Below, piece after piece: positions 3 through 16,256 of a stretch of DNA of 64,000 bases. The stretch covers positions 1-64,000 of the forward strand of contig NZ_JAMQOT010000002.1 in assembly GCF_029502005.1 (NCBI RefSeq), read 5' to 3'. Both the position numbers and the translations under genes were made by a program. Under the pieces are notes generated by a model. It saw only the letters and a program-made list of their open reading frames with translations, ran no database searches and was not told where the DNA came from. Numbering within the stretch: position 1 is the first letter of the stretch; every line of letters starts with the position of its first letter. Origin of the DNA: Natrinema salsiterrestre (GTDB lineage Archaea > Halobacteriota > Halobacteria > Halobacteriales > Natrialbaceae).

Positions 3-119
3 TGGGTGGGCAGTCGGGTGAGCGTCAGAGAATGGCTTGAACAGTTCATACACTACTACAACACACAACGACCGCACCAATCACTTAACGAACAGACGCC
101 AGCGGAGGTGCTAAACTAG
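3..119 (+). mobile_element. C-terminal end of a DDE-type transposase (IS end, 5' part outside window)
   Basis: The frame starting at base 3 reads into a typical integrase-core transposase tail: REWLEQFIHYYNTQRPHQSL followed by NEQTPAEVLN and a TAG stop at 117-119. The YYN..RPHQSL...TPAEVL pattern is characteristic of the last part of rve/DDE transposases (IS3, IS6 and IS481-like families). The rest of the element lies left of the window. Immediately after the stop comes AACTAGACAGTGC (114-126), which recurs at 26756 and is probably the IS terminal repeat. The exact IS family cannot be set from 38 residues. Confidence 0.75.
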
Positions 120-120
120 A

Positions 121-1509
121 CAGTGCCTACTTGAGCATACCCACAACACAACTGAAGATGGATTAATCGAAGTAGTCGACCAGGTTGACGGAGAGACCTG
201 GGAATTGGAACCCGGATTGCTCAAACCATTCTTGAAAGGAAACGACGTACACCGATATGATCCATTAGAACCCCGGTACTGGGTCATTTTCCCCTATCAT
301 ATTGATGGTGAAGATGCTGAATTCGTTGAAGAAGAAGAACTTGAGCAACGGTATCCACGCACCTATGAATATCTTCGACAGCATGAGGATGACCTGAGAA
401 ATCGGGAAGGTGGTAAGATGGACCATGAGCGTTGGTACGACTACGTCTATCCAAAAAACCTCACAGATTTCCAAAAAGAGAAAATTATAACTCCAGAAAT
501 TAGTTATGGACCTAATTTCACGTATGATTCTGATGGGACATACCACACCACGAAGGTATATGGTCTATTAGTCAATGACTCAGTAGACTTCTCACCTGAG
601 TATTTGCTTTCCGTTCTGAATAGCCCCACTTTGTGGTTCTTCCTGAGCAATACCGGATATACTCTTCGAGGTGGCTATTTCACTTTTAAGACAAACTATC
701 TCAATCCGTTCTCTGTTCCACAGATTCCTACAGACTCAGATGCTGATTCTGTTGAAGAATGTCAAGAGTGGTACGAGAAATTTATCTCACAGTCAACTAC
801 TGAAGAGTGCCCCATCTTTACCGAGCAGTTCGACCTCCGTAGTGGGACGACTCATGACTTCCTCGGATTCTTAGCTGAAGAGATTATCCAACTCAAAGCG
901 CAACATGATCAGTTGAATCTGAACATATTGGACTACTTGGGCACATACTCGAACGGTCAACAATTAGGTGAGCTAGCAGAGTATCAGCCACCTCAAGGTG
1001 CAGCTGAGTCTATCATCGCTGAAACTTCAGAAACGAGAGATAGCCTCCGAGTTGGAAGCATAGATATTGTTGATTCAGGATCTAAGTTAGAAGTCAAGCT
1101 TACTGCTCGGTATAAACCAGATGACCCAGAGGATTTTGAAACCGACCAATGGGGGTATACTGAAACACAGTCCTACTCAGCAATGGAATTCATTGGCCTC
1201 TCCGAGGAGATGAAAGCGATTATCAAGGAATTTGTTCCTGTCGCAGTTGAGGAGGCAGGCGGTTTTGCTAACTTCCGAGAAACAGCAACCAAGACGAACT
1301 CACTGATTGACCGCCTAAAGAAAACCACACTTCCGGCTCAGGACGACGTTTCTGATGGTATTCAGCGGTACCTCTCGACGAAAAACCGAGCAGAGAACAT
1401 TCAATACCAGATTGAGAAAACCGATGACCTCATCAATCGGATTGTATACGCTCTCTACGGCTTCGAGGATGACGAGGTGGAGCGTATCGAATCAACACTA
1501 GAAGAATGA
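121..1509 (+). CDS. 5'-truncated adenine methyltransferase / type IIG-like specificity region (DISARM DrmMI or PglX-like), cut by an IS
   Basis: The longest start-to-stop frame begins at a TTG at 205, but the same frame is open back to about 115, directly against the transposase end, and reads GLIEVVDQVDGETWELEPGL before the TTG. That stretch and the following LLKPFLKGNDVHRY match the region just after the catalytic domain in Eco57I/PglX-type N6-adenine methyltransferases, where a target-recognition domain begins. The following residues (YWVIFPYH, NSPTLWFFLSNTGYTLRGGY, NPFSVPQIP) fit the TaqI-like specificity domain. The SAM-binding and NPPY catalytic motifs are absent, so the N-terminal half was probably lost to the IS insertion. 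Its stop overlaps the start of the SNF2 helicase gene by 4 bases. Inference: it was the modification subunit of a DISARM-like or BREX-like system and is now probably non-functional as a methyltransferase. Confidence 0.65.
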   Translation, partial: QCLLEHTHNTTEDGLIEVVDQVDGETWELEPGLLKPFLKGNDVHRYDPLEPRYWVIFPYHIDGEDAEFVEEEELEQRYPRTYEYLRQHEDDLRNREGGKMDHERWYDYVYPKNLTDFQKEKIITPEISYGPNFTYDSDGTYHTTKVYGLLVNDSVDFSPEYLLSVLNSPTLWFFLSNTGYTLRGGYFTFKTNYLNPFSVPQIPTDSDADSVEECQEWYEKFISQSTTEECPIFTEQFDLRSGTTHDFLGFLAEEIIQLKAQHDQLNLNILDYLGTYSNGQQLGELAEYQPPQGAAESIIAETSETRDSLRVGSIDIVDSGSKLEVKLTARYKPDDPEDFETDQWGYTETQSYSAMEFIGLSEEMKAIIKEFVPVAVEEAGGFANFRETATKTNSLIDRLKKTTLPAQDDVSDGIQRYLSTKNRAENIQYQIEKTDDLINRIVYALYGFEDDEVERIESTLEE

Positions 1510-4469
1510 CCGACTTTGAGGTCGGCGAATATGTCAAGTTCGCTGGTGGCCAAGGCGAAATCACGAAAATCGAAGAGAGACCGAATGGAGGCCAACTCCT
1601 CCACGTCTACACCACAGAGGGACAGCTTCGAAAACTTCCGAGTGGCCTACCTCATATCGAGAGGATTGACTCCATCGTTGACCGGCTCGCAGCGCGGCAG
1701 ATTGATTCGCCTATCCACTACGACCTTCGGAAGCGTGCGACTCGCCTTGACCTCGCATACCGGTACGATCGGTTCCTGTCGCTGACGAACAACCGCATCG
1801 AGATCGAACCGTATCAGGTTCAGGCTGCTTACGAAATCCTGAACTCCTACGACCACCGCTACCTCATCGGCGACGAGGTCGGTCTCGGGAAGACCATAGA
1901 GGCCGGTATCGTCATCGAGGAACTCATCGCTCGCGAACGCGCCGAGCGTGTACTCATCGTCGCACCGGCACCGCTGACCGTCCAGTGGCAAGAGGAGATG
2001 CGAGAGAAGTTTGACCGGAACTTCGTCATCTACGACCGCGAGACGGTCGAAACTCATCGACAGTCCCACCCGAACCAGAACGTCTGGAAGCAGGAAGACC
2101 TCATCATAACCTCGATCGACTTCGCGAAACAGACGACCGACGATCCTGATTCGGACAAAGTCTCTGTTCTCGATGCGCTCGATAACCTCGACGAGGAGTG
2201 GGACGTCGCCGTTTTCGACGAAGCTCACCACCTGACAGCTCGCCGCTCGAGTGACGACTCTATCGAGCGGACGCAACGCTACCTAGTGGGCGAGGCGGTC
2301 GCTGAGAACTCTGACTCCCTGTTGCTCCTCACAGGAACGCCACACAAGGGCAAGTCCGACCAGTTCTATTTCCTCGTCAGCCTGCTCGACCCGTACCGCT
2401 TCAGCCACGAGTCACAAATTAACCCCGACGCGCTGGAGGACTTGATGATACGGCGGTTGAAAGACGACATGTACGACACCGATGGGACGCGCATGTTCCC
2501 CGAGAAGAACATCGAGGCATTGGGTGTCGACATGTCCGAGGCTGAGCGAAAGCTCTACGAGGACGTCACTGAGTACATCCGCGAATACTACAACCTTGCA
2601 CAGCAAGAGGAGAACCAGGCTGCCGGCTTTACGATGGTCATCTACCAGAAGCGGCTGGTCTCTAGCGTCCATGCCATCAGAAAATCGCTGGAAAACCGCA
2701 TGCGGGCGATCCAGAACGATGGCATCGCCGAAGAACTTCCCGACGACGTACAGGAGCTTATCCCGCGCTACAGTACGGAACCCGAGACGCTAACCGAGGC
2801 CGAACGGTCACGTGTCGAAGAGGCCCTTGAGACGGTCACGATCACCCTGAATCGGTCGCAGATGCAGGAGGAACTGGACCGTGTTAAACAGCTCTGGCAG
2901 CAAGCCAAGAACATCGAGACCGACTCGAAGGCACAACTGCTTCGCCAGTTCGTCGACCGCATTCTGCGGGAAGACCCCGATGAGAAGATCCTCATCTTCA
3001 CTGAGTACACGGACACTCTCGAGTATCTGCGCGATCAGGTGTTCCCCGAACACGACATCGCGCAGGTGTACGGTGACCTCGATCAGGAGCGCCGTCGGCG
3101 AGAGATGGAGAAGTTCGAGGAAGAAGCGAATCTGATGCTGGCGACCGACGCGGCACAGGAGGGGCTCAACCTCCAGTTCGCCCACATCATGGTGAACTAC
3201 GACCTGCCGTGGAACCCGATTCGTATCGACCAGCGCATGGGTCGACTCCATCGCTACGGACAGGAACACACCGTCGAGATTCGCAATCTGTTCTTCAAAG
3301 ATACCCGCGAGAGCGAGATTCTCAACCTTCTCGTCGAGAAAACCAACCAGATCGAGTCTGACCTCGGAATGCGGTCGGACGTGATGGGTCGTGTTCTGGA
3401 GGATGTCGACCTCGACGAGACGATCATGTCTGCTATCGCTGAAGGTCGGCCAACAGACAAGGTGGTGGCAGACATTGAGTCGACCATCGAGGAACGCAAA
3501 GACGCCTTACAGACCGTTGAGAACGAGTTCCTCATTCGGGACCGGTTTGACCTCTCCAACGAGGACGAAGAGGTTCTCGATGTTATTGAACGTAGCCAGC
3601 ACGGGGAGGTGAGCGAAGACGACATCGAAGTTCTCGTTCGCGAGTTCTTCGATGAGTTCAGCGGTACAGTCAAGGGCGTTCGCCCCGGCCCCTCGCGTTC
3701 TGGTGGAGACGTCTACCAATTGGACGTTCCGGACGTACTCTCGGGTGACCGAGTTTCTGGGCAGTACGAACGTGCGACCTTTACCAAAGAGGTCGCGATG
3801 GACCAGGATGACGTCGACTTCATCGCGCTCGATCACCCGTTAGTCCAGTCGCTTATCGAGTTCTGTCTCAGCTCTGACCGCATCCAAGGCCAGCTCGCCG
3901 TCAAAGTCACTGGTGGAAGTGAGCCAGCACCGGGAATACTCTTTACTTACCGACTGGGTTACGTCTCAGGGGCTGGCGATGTCGTCACCGAGAAACTCGT
4001 TCCACTGTACGTTACCACGGACGGCGAGGTCTCCACCAGTGCTCCCGAGATAATCGATACGCTCCCTCCCGAAGAGACCTCCTCTAACCAAACTCTCGAC
4101 CGTTTGGCATCGATGGCTGAAGAACTCCACCAGGAGACACAGATGGAGGCCTGGACGCAGGTCGAGTCGTTCGCCGATGAAGCACGTGAGGAGCGCGAAC
4201 GCGAGATCGAGATCAAGCGCCAGCACGCAGAGCGGTACTTCGAGGAGGAAATCAATGAGTGGGAAGAGCGCCTCGAAACGTACCAGCAACGAGACGAAGA
4301 GGGAAAGGACATGTCCGCTCCGATCGGAAATGCGAAACGGAAGCTCGAATCGCTGCGACGTGAGCGGGACGAAGAGCTGGCTCGTCTTGAGGAAGAGAAA
4401 CACGTCACGCCAGAAGAGCCAGACTTAGTGTCGGCCGCGTTCGTCATTCCAGATGAAGAGGCTGAGTGA
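1506..4469 (+). CDS. drmD: SNF2-family DEAD/DEAH helicase, DrmD-like (DISARM-type defence)
   Basis: A 987-residue superfamily 2 ATPase. After a small N-terminal SH3-like segment (VGEYVKFAGGQGEITKIE) come the Walker A motif GDEVGLGKT (about residues 122-130), the DEAH box (FDEAHH, about 237-242), TGTPHKG motif III, and a helicase C domain ending in the arginine-finger motif DQRMGRLHRYGQ. The long C-terminal part (about 650-987) is acidic and coiled-coil rich. Size and architecture fit DrmD-like and RapA-like SNF2 proteins found beside adenine methyltransferases in class 1 DISARM systems. It overlaps the methyltransferase remnant by 4 bases and the TBP-like gene at its stop, so the three form one operon. 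No drmA, drmB or drmC is visible. It could also be a non-DISARM SNF2 helicase of a restriction locus. Confidence 0.7.
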   Translation: MTDFEVGEYVKFAGGQGEITKIEERPNGGQLLHVYTTEGQLRKLPSGLPHIERIDSIVDRLAARQIDSPIHYDLRKRATRLDLAYRYDRFLSLTNNRIEIEPYQVQAAYEILNSYDHRYLIGDEVGLGKTIEAGIVIEELIARERAERVLIVAPAPLTVQWQEEMREKFDRNFVIYDRETVETHRQSHPNQNVWKQEDLIITSIDFAKQTTDDPDSDKVSVLDALDNLDEEWDVAVFDEAHHLTARRSSDDSIERTQRYLVGEAVAENSDSLLLLTGTPHKGKSDQFYFLVSLLDPYRFSHESQINPDALEDLMIRRLKDDMYDTDGTRMFPEKNIEALGVDMSEAERKLYEDVTEYIREYYNLAQQEENQAAGFTMVIYQKRLVSSVHAIRKSLENRMRAIQNDGIAEELPDDVQELIPRYSTEPETLTEAERSRVEEALETVTITLNRSQMQEELDRVKQLWQQAKNIETDSKAQLLRQFVDRILREDPDEKILIFTEYTDTLEYLRDQVFPEHDIAQVYGDLDQERRRREMEKFEEEANLMLATDAAQEGLNLQFAHIMVNYDLPWNPIRIDQRMGRLHRYGQEHTVEIRNLFFKDTRESEILNLLVEKTNQIESDLGMRSDVMGRVLEDVDLDETIMSAIAEGRPTDKVVADIESTIEERKDALQTVENEFLIRDRFDLSNEDEEVLDVIERSQHGEVSEDDIEVLVREFFDEFSGTVKGVRPGPSRSGGDVYQLDVPDVLSGDRVSGQYERATFTKEVAMDQDDVDFIALDHPLVQSLIEFCLSSDRIQGQLAVKVTGGSEPAPGILFTYRLGYVSGAGDVVTEKLVPLYVTTDGEVSTSAPEIIDTLPPEETSSNQTLDRLASMAEELHQETQMEAWTQVESFADEAREEREREIEIKRQHAERYFEEEINEWEERLETYQQRDEEGKDMSAPIGNAKRKLESLRRERDEELARLEEEKHVTPEEPDLVSAAFVIPDEEAE

Positions 4470-5014
4470 TGGTCAGTATCGCCAATGTTGTCGGTTCGGG
4501 AAGTCTGAACGTTGAGTTAGACGTTGAGCAACTGGGTGCTGATTTGGATGTGCCGTATACTGAATACGACCCAGAGAACTATCATGGCCTCTACGTCCGT
4601 CTGGTGGAGGGCGGGCCATTGATCACGGTCTATCGCAGCGGGAAATACATCATCAGCGGATGTTCGACGTTCGAGGAACTGGAGGATACGAACGAAAAGT
4701 TCCTCGAGCACTTGATTGAGTTCGGTATCATCGATTCTGACCTTGATCCAGGATTCACCGTACAGAACGTCGTCTGTACGGCCGATCTGGGGCACAGTGT
4801 GAACCTCAACGCGCTCGCAATTGGTCTAGGGCTCGAGGCGGTCGAATATGAGCCAGAACAGTTTCCTGGGTTAGTTTACCGACCTCCCGAATTCCCTACC
4901 GTGCTGTTACTCTTTGCAAATGGGAAAGTCGTAGTCACAGGGTCTCCAGACATACAAACAGCAGAAGATGCGTTTTCTAATCTGGAGTCTCAAATAGACG
5001 ATCTACTCGAGTAA
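4469..5014 (+). CDS. TATA-binding-protein-like protein with two TBP repeats, in the helicase operon
   Basis: About 181 residues made of two imperfect TBP repeats. Repeat 1 begins IANVVGSGSLNVELDVEQLG and contains YRSGKYIISG. Repeat 2 begins VQNVVCTADLGHSVNLNALA and contains EYEPEQFPGLVYR and NGKVVVTG, very close to archaeal TBP. In repeat 2 the phenylalanines at the DNA-kinking positions are kept (FPGLVYR, LLLFANGK). In repeat 1 both are replaced (YHGLYVR, ITVYRSGK), so DNA bending may differ from canonical TBP. The ATG at 4469 shares its A with the helicase stop codon; a GTG at 4466 is the alternative start. Haloarchaea often carry several tbp genes, but one translationally coupled to a SNF2 ATPase is unusual. 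Inferred roles: a dedicated promoter factor, or a DNA-binding partner of the helicase. Confidence 0.8.
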   Translation: MVSIANVVGSGSLNVELDVEQLGADLDVPYTEYDPENYHGLYVRLVEGGPLITVYRSGKYIISGCSTFEELEDTNEKFLEHLIEFGIIDSDLDPGFTVQNVVCTADLGHSVNLNALAIGLGLEAVEYEPEQFPGLVYRPPEFPTVLLLFANGKVVVTGSPDIQTAEDAFSNLESQIDDLLE

Positions 5015-13769: not shown

Positions 13770-16256
13770 ATGGGAGACTCTGGGCCTGGGGACGGAATCA
13801 CCCAAGACGGCGTTATGAAACTTCTCCGGCAACAGGCGTCACCGCTATCGACTGAGGAAGTTTGTAAGTCGTTTGGATGTTCGTGTCAGGCCGCTCAACG
13901 GCACTTAGAAACACTTGCCGAGCGTGAACAAATCCAGCGCAAGCAAGTGAGTGAGTCGAACGCCGTCTGGTGGGTGACGGACAGGAATCTCCAGGGCGAC
14001 AACCAGAATGTGGATGAGAAGTTTAGTGCCTTCGTGAGTGCTGTCGAGGACTACGCTATCTTCGTGCTCCGCCCCGATGGCACGGTCGCAACGTGGAACG
14101 AAGGGGCCAAACGGATCAAGGGGTACGAAGAGGATGAGATCGTCGGCGACCACTTCTCGACATTCTACACTGACGAGGACGTTGTTGAGGGCGTACCCGA
14201 GCGAAACCTCGAAATTGCTGCAACCGAAGGGCGGGTAGATGACGACGGTTGGCGCGTTCGAAAGGACGGTTCGCGCTTCTGGGCAAACGTGACGATTACC
14301 GCTATCCGAGACGAAGACGGCGAACTCCAGGGGTTCACGAAGGTCACCCGTGACATGACTGAGCGCCGCGAGTACGAGCAACAACTCGAGACGCAAAACG
14401 AGCAACTCGAACGCCAGCGCGACGAACTCGAAGAAGAACTTGAGGACGTTTTCGAGCGGGTTGACGATGCGTTCTATGCCCTCGACGAGAAGTTTCGGTT
14501 CGAGTACGTCAACGAACGCGCAGAAGAGATCCTCGGCAAGTCTGCGGGCGAACTTCTCGGACAGGCTCCCTGGGAAGCGCTCGACGCTGATGAAGACGAC
14601 CCGCTCTTTGCGAAGTACGAGACGGCACTGGAGTCCCAAGAGTCACGATCCTTCGAACGGTGCTCGGAGCCGCTGGGAATTTGGGAGGAGGTCCGGGTCT
14701 ACCCCTCTGAGTCCGGCCTCTCGGTGTACTTCCGAGACATTACCGACCAGAAGGAACGCGAACGCGCGCTGCGCGAGAGCGAAGAACGATACCGATCACT
14801 CACAGATGATGTCCTCGATACCTCCGAGGTAGGGACGTTCATCCTTGATTCAGAGTTCGAGATCGTATGGGTCAATGAAGCGGTCGAGGAGTATTTTGAT
14901 CTCGATCGTGAGGCGATTCTCGGACGGGACAAGCGGGAGGTCATCGAGGACCACATCGCCGAACTATTCGAAAAACCGCAGGAGTTCGCCAACCGCGTGA
15001 CTGCGACATACGATGACAACACCTACACCGAACAGTTCGAGTGCCACATCGTAAAAAATGAAACCCGCGACGAACGGTGGTTGGAACACTGGAGCCAGCC
15101 GATCCAGTCCGGGCTTTACGCCGGTGGTCGGATTGAGCACTATACTAACATTACTCAACAAAAACAGAGAGAACGAGAACTTTCGTGGTTTAAGCGAGCG
15201 GTCGAAGCATCGGGTCACGCGATCTACATGACCGACGCCAATGGTGAGATTACGTATGTCAATTCAGCGTTCGAGGAAATAACCGGATATTCTGCTGAGG
15301 TGGCTATTGGCAAAACCCCCGAGATTCTCCAGTCTGGTGAACACGACGACACATATTACCAGACGCTTTGGGAGACGGTTCAGGATGGAGATGTCTGGGA
15401 AGAAGAGATTACTGATCGTCGGAAGAACGGCGAACGTTACTATGCCGAACAAACTATTGCCCCAGTCACCGGCGAGAACGGTGAAATTGATCGATTTGTT
15501 GCCGTCCAGAACGACATCACTGAGCGTAAACGACACGAACAACGGCTTGAAGAACTCATCGAACGGCTAGATGCGTCCAATGAGCGCTTAGAACAGTTCG
15601 CGTACGCTGTCTCTCACGACCTCCAGGAACCACTGCGGATGGTTTCCTCGTATCTTCAGCTCATCGAGCGCCGGTTTGAAGACGACCTCGACGAGGAGGC
15701 GTTGGAGTACCTCGATTTCGCAGTCGATGGGGCCGAGCGAATGACCGAGATGATCGATGATCTCCTGGCGTATTCCCGAATTGAAACCCAGGGGAGTCCA
15801 ACTGAACTTGTGGATCTGGATGCTGTCCTCGAAGATGCCCGAGCCGATCTTCAGTTTCGGATAGAAGAACACGACGCTGAAATTATGATCGAGGAGCTCC
15901 CAGAGGTCAAGGGTGACGAAAGCCAACTTCGCCAGCTCTTCCAGAACCTTCTGGATAACGCGATCGAGTACAGCGGCGAGGAACCGCCGCGAGTCCATAT
16001 CTCAGCGGCGCAAGAGGGGTCGACGTGGCAAATTTCTGTTCGAGATGAGGGTATCGGTATTGATCCAGGGGATCAAGAACGTATCTTCGAGATTTTCCAG
16101 CGACTCCATACACGAGAAGAGCATGAAGGCACAGGAGTCGGCCTCGCACTGTGTGAACGTATCGTTGACCATCATGGCGGCGAAATACAGGTGGAGTCGG
16201 AGGCGGGTGCAGGAACCACGTTCACAATTTCGCTACCGGCCGTCGATAGTACCTAA
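13770..16256 (+). CDS. Multi-PAS hybrid sensor histidine kinase with N-terminal HTH
   Basis: An 828-residue cytoplasmic sensor with no membrane segment. It starts with a winged-helix-like segment (LLRQQASPLSTEEVCKSFGC, about 17-60), unusual for this kinase type. Four PAS-type domains follow (about 85-195, 225-330, 345-465 and 470-590), the first of the VEDYAIFVLRPDGTVATWNE type. The HisKA dimerisation helix carries the phospho-accepting His616 (AVSHDLQEPLRM). The HATPase_c domain has the N box NLLDNAIEYSG (about 725-735), G1 DEGIGI and G2 GTGVGLAL. The PAS domains probably sense redox or ligand. The response partner may be the receiver at 11086, but that is inference. Confidence 0.92.
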   Translation: MGDSGPGDGITQDGVMKLLRQQASPLSTEEVCKSFGCSCQAAQRHLETLAEREQIQRKQVSESNAVWWVTDRNLQGDNQNVDEKFSAFVSAVEDYAIFVLRPDGTVATWNEGAKRIKGYEEDEIVGDHFSTFYTDEDVVEGVPERNLEIAATEGRVDDDGWRVRKDGSRFWANVTITAIRDEDGELQGFTKVTRDMTERREYEQQLETQNEQLERQRDELEEELEDVFERVDDAFYALDEKFRFEYVNERAEEILGKSAGELLGQAPWEALDADEDDPLFAKYETALESQESRSFERCSEPLGIWEEVRVYPSESGLSVYFRDITDQKERERALRESEERYRSLTDDVLDTSEVGTFILDSEFEIVWVNEAVEEYFDLDREAILGRDKREVIEDHIAELFEKPQEFANRVTATYDDNTYTEQFECHIVKNETRDERWLEHWSQPIQSGLYAGGRIEHYTNITQQKQRERELSWFKRAVEASGHAIYMTDANGEITYVNSAFEEITGYSAEVAIGKTPEILQSGEHDDTYYQTLWETVQDGDVWEEEITDRRKNGERYYAEQTIAPVTGENGEIDRFVAVQNDITERKRHEQRLEELIERLDASNERLEQFAYAVSHDLQEPLRMVSSYLQLIERRFEDDLDEEALEYLDFAVDGAERMTEMIDDLLAYSRIETQGSPTELVDLDAVLEDARADLQFRIEEHDAEIMIEELPEVKGDESQLRQLFQNLLDNAIEYSGEEPPRVHISAAQEGSTWQISVRDEGIGIDPGDQERIFEIFQRLHTREEHEGTGVGLALCERIVDHHGGEIQVESEAGAGTTFTISLPAVDST

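Follow-up and report, generated by a model that had tools for sequence, protein, structure and literature searches.

We found that a group of haloarchaeal TATA-binding proteins (TBPs) with altered DNA-kinking phenylalanines, the TbpC type, is genetically linked, nearly exclusively, to methyltransferase-based defence systems. The modified TBP is probably a private switch of DNA-methylating anti-virus systems and not the partner of one helicase. Our main reading, to which we give a probability of roughly 0.55, is that it is a dedicated initiation factor of haloarchaeal methyltransferase-based defence that controls its own locus. One such gene lies at the beginning of the window, that is, the whole stretch of 64,000 nucleotides analysed (64 kb from the start of contig C20 of Natrinema salsiterrestre), in the following arrangement:

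18..119, + strand: IS remnant, the C-terminal end of an rve_3-type transposase (rve_3, 1.7e-9), which abuts and truncates the operon
121..1509, + strand: C-terminal remnant of a DrmMI/Eco57I-type adenine methyltransferase, with a TaqI-like specificity domain (TaqI_C, 2.7e-13)
1506..4469, + strand: SNF2/RapA-type ATPase of 987 aa, BrxHII/DrmD-like by Pfam and PADLOC matches
4469..5014, + strand: TbpC-type TATA-binding-protein paralogue, 181 aa from ATG (alternative start GTG 4466)
4472..4720, + strand: TBP repeat 1, with Tyr at both DNA-kinking Phe positions
4754..4996, + strand: TBP repeat 2, which keeps both Phe and the TFB-contact motif EYEPEQFPG

As the sequence-only reading had stated, the SNF2 and TBP genes overlap at the stop and start codons and share an operon with the methyltransferase remnant, and the open reading frames (121-1509, 1506-4469 and 4469-5014) were confirmed. 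The methyltransferase remnant and the SNF2 gene overlap in the same manner. The first overlap comprises 4 nt (ATGA); the SNF2 stop and the TBP start share TGATG, a geometry retained in several orthologous loci, and the ATG at 4469 within it is the likely TBP start. The SNF2 protein matched SNF2-rel_dom (1.8e-20), Helicase_C (3.3e-26), ResIII, AAA_34 and, weakly, RapA_C in Pfam, and BrxHII (1e-172), HmaA (5e-129) and DrmD (7e-120) in PADLOC. A full-length methyltransferase orthologue at locus L070 matched DrmMI (PADLOC, 9.5e-104) and Eco57I (Pfam, 4.8e-33). The earlier assignment to a defence-type locus was supported.

The window methyltransferase is cut on its upstream side, at about position 120, by the transposase end, so that just the TaqI_C specificity region survives and the catalytic N-terminal portion is missing. 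The rest of the genome was searched for a matching N-terminal half and none was found, only a different relative of 1312 aa at C20:546532. Therefore, the system cannot methylate as encoded, and because the operon has also lost its promoter end, this copy is probably inactive. A second RM-linked locus in the same genome (contig G000:C5, L093:3923-8013) has two aberrant TBPs and an Eco57I-type enzyme of 980 aa, and the window also encodes, at 13770-16256, a large PAS-domain sensor histidine kinase of a sort usual in haloarchaea.

The window TBP has two PF00352 repeats (2.9e-41), and its AlphaFold model adopts the saddle-shaped TBP fold (pLDDT 90); the closest PDB entries were archaeal TBPs, such as 1mp9 (TM 0.86), and 1ais was also among the matches. 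Like archaeal TBPs in general, it carries the TFB-contact stirrup in repeat 2, as judged by the presence of EYEPEQFPG, but its kink positions read YYFF where canonical TBPs have four Phe. Thus, the earlier observation that repeat 2 keeps its phenylalanines held, whereas the aromatics of repeat 1 are not simply lost: both Phe have become Tyr, as in most of the clade (42 of 60 TbpC-type proteins at the first position and 51 of 60 at the second), and Tyr-Tyr for Phe-Phe is a conservative change. Among the same 60 proteins, each residue of the repeat-2 stirrup Y-E-P-E-Q was kept in 57-60, the two minor-groove Asn in 54 and 53, and the minor-groove Val in most. From solved TBP complexes, we take Y-E-P-E-Q to face TFB and the minor-groove residues to face DNA. 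In the TBPs of SNF2-type loci, dN/dS had a median of 0.13 in repeat 1 and 0.09 in repeat 2, values read with the caveat that synonymous sites were saturated in most pairs (close pairs gave 0.07-0.13), and both repeats are under purifying selection. Considering this constraint on the protein, the simplest reading of the sequences is that the TbpC-type protein still works with TFB.

A total of 172 distinct TBPs were collected from 125 genomes of the family, one genome-contig scan, plasmids and phages, and six-frame translations of their neighbourhoods were scanned with TBP profiles and with profiles of restriction-modification (RM) and BREX genes. An RM or BREX gene was found within 3 kb of 54 of the 62 TBPs that lack one or more kink Phe, but of only 1 of the 110 four-Phe TBPs (Fisher p = 8.8e-35); related TBPs are not independent events in these counts. 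On the tree, the linkage label needs at least 7 changes, compared with 31 when labels were shuffled. The sole linked four-Phe TBP (L236) clusters in that tree with the L100 TBP, which comes from a DISARM locus. As for the eight unlinked Phe-missing TBPs, two lie at contig ends (L083, L259), two have an N6_N4 methyltransferase outside the coverage of the detectors (L226, L230), one adjoins a BREX-5 pglZ (L127) and one has hsdM at 3.8 kb (L091_8997); only L247 and L253 are truly unlinked, and in the tree both cluster with TBPs that have all four Phe. Since the RM/BREX detectors had been built from genes of the same neighbourhoods, the test was repeated with independent Pfam methyltransferase matches, which occurred within 6 kb of 33 of the 150 TBPs listed (about 0.4% expected) and of 1 of the last 60 listed, nearly all of which were canonical. 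The earlier suggestion that this TBP is no plain general factor was supported.

The TbpC-type genes are encoded inside or beside the RM operon, often co-directional with overlapping neighbours and often final in the operon, with a start that overlaps the preceding stop. Two aberrant TBPs flank one RM system at L077, L080, L091, L093, L115, L122 and L233; at L077:2821-6858, one of them is without the C-terminal Phe pair and the other without the N-terminal pair.

These data make it very improbable that the TBPs are functionless, degenerate copies hitch-hiking on mobile elements. Such an explanation would fit the plasmid and virus locations and the published suggestion that TbpC is possibly non-functional (PMC4230888), but it sits poorly with a dN/dS of about 0.1 in both repeats, with a nearly invariant TFB motif and with the 54/62 versus 1/110 linkage, all the more as other four-Phe TBPs encoded on plasmids show no RM linkage.

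The partner systems were diverse. They include type I RM systems (hsdM/S/R), Eco57I-type single polypeptides, PglX of BREX-5 and of another BREX, DUF499/DUF1156 Hma-like genes with McrC, DISARM and the SNF2 type. In two haloviruses, a TbpC-type TBP accompanies an N4-cytosine methyltransferase and Eco29kI (Haloarcula virus HJTV-2, L291) or a type IIG enzyme (Halorubrum virus HRTV-9, L114). The element common to all TbpC-linked systems is a DNA methyltransferase. Both viruses are tailed, and their RM set and aberrant TBP occupy comparable places in the genome, close to an integrase and a tRNA-Thr gene. IMG/VR viral contigs L286-L290 encode TBPs that have, by eye, the repeat-2 motif and both repeat-1 Phe, and no RM gene was detected by profiles within about 7 kb of them.

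The TbpC-type proteins are separate from canonical TBPs in the tree, which is a quick tree with unsure long branches. Their subclades largely match the host system (for the SNF2 type, in 14 of 15 rows; BREX-5 is a further example), and those of type I and Eco57I-type hosts are mixed.

Since the TBPs lie in defence loci, retain the TFB motif and have altered repeat-1 kink residues, they might themselves be effectors or decoys whose modified saddle binds TFB and disturbs viral transcription initiation. We consider this unlikely: the genes are tied to many kinds of methyltransferase system with no stand-alone defence gene seen, two haloviruses bear the TBP alongside their own RM genes, and the Tyr-Tyr change is conservative. 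The methyltransferase as common denominator, and a TBP gene that often ends the operon and overlaps the stop before it, would also agree with a TBP that serves the methyltransferase or restriction complex as a subunit for DNA bending or recognition. This is slightly less probable still, because the partner architectures differ (HsdM, Eco57I, PglX, N4 methyltransferase, DUF1156), several partner methyltransferases have their own specificity domains or subunits, a subunit would not need to conserve the TFB-contact motif, and most related methyltransferases are found without a TBP. In fact, such a TBP accompanies only about 16% (about one in six) of the Eco57I methyltransferases and 5 of 29 HsdM, so RM systems in general do not depend on a TbpC-type TBP.

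The SNF2/TBP pair is not confined to the window. The methyltransferase-SNF2-TBP unit was seen in about 15 further haloarchaeal loci, including pNRC200 of Halobacterium NRC-1. SNF2 proteins of at least 82% identity occur in nine genomes of the same family (the window genome counted), with the TBP adjoining in 8 of the 9, and the unit is also present in five other plasmid or genome loci; this recurrence means that the pair is not a matter of chance. Intact orthologous loci (L070, L071, L072, L076, L110-L112) have the order small ORF of 63-70 aa, methyltransferase of about 1400 aa, SNF2 and TBP, and full-length methyltransferase homologues of about 1400 aa are found in L070, L071, L072 and L110-L112.

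The sequence-only reading had taken the SNF2 protein as a meaningful partner of the TBP, by analogy with Mot1, that is, as an ATPase that strips TBP from DNA or guards it, and had proposed counting how many TBPs sit beside SNF2 genes. The pair does recur in about 15 loci with its stop/start overlap, and the TBPs of the SNF2 type form a single subclade (98 in the quick tree). However, the majority of RM-linked clade members lack an adjacent SNF2 gene, and the same clade adjoins type I, Eco57I-type, N4-methyltransferase and BREX systems without SNF2. The SNF2 protein is BrxHII/DrmD/RapA-like with no additional Pfam domain, and no TBP-binding N-terminal HEAT-repeat region of the Mot1 kind was detected in it by Pfam. 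At L073, the SNF2 gene is present, the TBP is cleanly absent and the methyltransferase is frameshifted; at L106, the methyltransferase is intact, SNF2 is truncated and a TBP remnant of 32 residues is left. Both TBP-less loci seen among the SNF2-type loci are thus damaged in other genes too. At L075, an SNF2 protein 84% identical to that of the window is followed by a TBP from another subclade with the overlapping start retained, which shows that the TBP is exchangeable. An exclusive SNF2-TBP pair was therefore rejected as the main reading. As a DNA methyltransferase and not SNF2 is common to the host systems, we regard a Mot1-like pair as improbable.

Returning to the TBP as a dedicated initiation factor, we propose that the TbpC-type protein would bind DNA and TFB and control the expression of its own locus, its target promoters and the sign of regulation being inferred. 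A mobile RM or BREX cassette could in this way set its own expression after entry into a new host, or on demand, and the SNF2 ATPase would be a defence-system translocase that belongs to the methyltransferase rather than to the TBP. More specifically, we give about even odds to the idea that the private TBP, with its rebuilt N-terminal half saddle, forms system-specific TBP-TFB complexes that would make haloarchaeal and haloviral defence independent of the host TBPs. No dedicated TFB gene was found near the TBP in the window genome. Bacterial C (controller) proteins of RM systems are HTH regulators. The TbpC-type TBP may be their archaeal counterpart, the proposed likeness being that of a small dedicated regulator at an RM locus; unlike them, it is a paralogue of a general factor and would act through TFB.

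Some points weigh against a controller. The analysis identified no promoter bound by the TbpC-type TBP, and most Eco57I methyltransferases and HsdM do without such a TBP. Single-polypeptide enzymes less obviously need a timing controller. In Halobacterium, tbpC could be deleted with no apparent phenotype (PMC2121645), and PMC4230888 reports that strain PHH1 showed no detectable tbpC transcripts. On pNRC100/pNRC200 of NRC-1, however, the unit is present with its methyltransferase split by ISH27-2 (L109, NC_002608.1), which may explain the lack of an apparent phenotype; with the linked methyltransferase broken by an IS element, that lack says little.

The TbpC clade and its Phe pattern have already been published (PMC4230888), and that paper and the knock-out study (PMC2121645) consider TbpC either to be non-functional or to have some special role that is unknown. 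The clade has lost the N-terminal Phe pair and retained the C-terminal one, just as in the window TBP, which groups in the same SNF2-type subclade with Halobacterium VNG_RS11040 (L109). The latter is the only full-length TBP found on pNRC200 without the N-terminal Phe, and from this pattern we infer that it is TbpC; several homologues are publicly annotated as "TATA-box-binding protein C". The text of PMC4230888 contains no occurrence of restriction, methyltransferase or methylase, and we found no report in the open-licence literature linking a TBP to RM, BREX or antiviral defence. The clade was therefore known but unexplained, and its linkage to RM and BREX appears to be new, no published link having been found.

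TBP-family proteins within conflict or defence operons are otherwise known from TOTE and TALON, which include a TBP among their components (PMC12458937, citing Aravind, Iyer et al. 2022). TALON differs in being very rare and bacterial and in encoding a YprA helicase together with a TPR-CSD protein (PMC12458937), whereas the window encodes a full two-repeat archaeal TBP with the TFB motif next to methyltransferases. The locus had also been called DISARM-like. A two-gene kinship with DISARM class 1 and ARMADA did hold, namely a DrmMI-like methyltransferase (seen in full-length orthologues, the window having only a remnant) and a BrxHII/DrmD-like helicase; the SNF2 protein of DISARM loci that do contain DrmA, DrmB or DrmC is about 56% identical to that of the window, and the DISARM locus L100 also bears a divergent TBP of the TbpC-type clade. 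By gene content, however, DISARM membership was rejected: DrmA, DrmB and DrmC are absent from all 16 SNF2-type loci (in the window, the upstream side lies beyond the assembly), and the unit therefore shares ancestry with DISARM yet is not DISARM. In BREX type 5 of haloarchaea, the TbpC-type gene adjoins pglX or pglZ. Within the examined stretch of the window locus no brxB, brxC or pglZ was found, and the BREX combination of brxC and pglZ with pglX was undetected there and in the SNF2-type orthologues, while it is present at other TBP-carrying loci.

With this linkage TbpC, to which no function has been assigned since its first description, gains an almost exclusive genomic address, and the purpose of the many haloarchaeal TBPs becomes directly testable at RM and BREX loci. 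If the proposed mechanism is true, archaeal defence controls restriction through a private general transcription factor, which would constitute a class of defence regulator derived from such a factor and would bear on how these systems move into a new host without being lethal to it, as well as on archaeal promoter choice.

The promoters of the SNF2-type operons are overlain by a conserved 21-bp palindrome, TAGTCTAAGTAAAGACTATAT (12 loci). It was considered as a binding site of the TBP and rejected, because it tracks the first gene of 63-75 aa and, in a family-wide search and fetched loci, also precedes this gene in Hma-like operons that have no TBP close by; it is thus not evidence for TBP action and probably not the TBP's own signature. 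No element common across systems was found in the promoter comparison of the BREX and Eco57I-type groups, and no promoter bound by the TbpC-type TBP, or element specific to it, was identified in the promoter comparisons. The Hma-like operons that share this front end encode HmaC/DUF499, HmaB/DUF1156 and a PLD helicase, and the 20-21-bp palindrome with the first gene was seen in both kinds of operon (L313, L314, L321 (palindrome near 2.1 kb), L070-L073, L110-L112). The first-gene product (63-75 aa, MTRKxIGxNxGxSGRxNxSG) has no Pfam match and is AbrB-like by eye. The palindrome and the first gene are possibly an autoregulatory front end shared by two defence systems.
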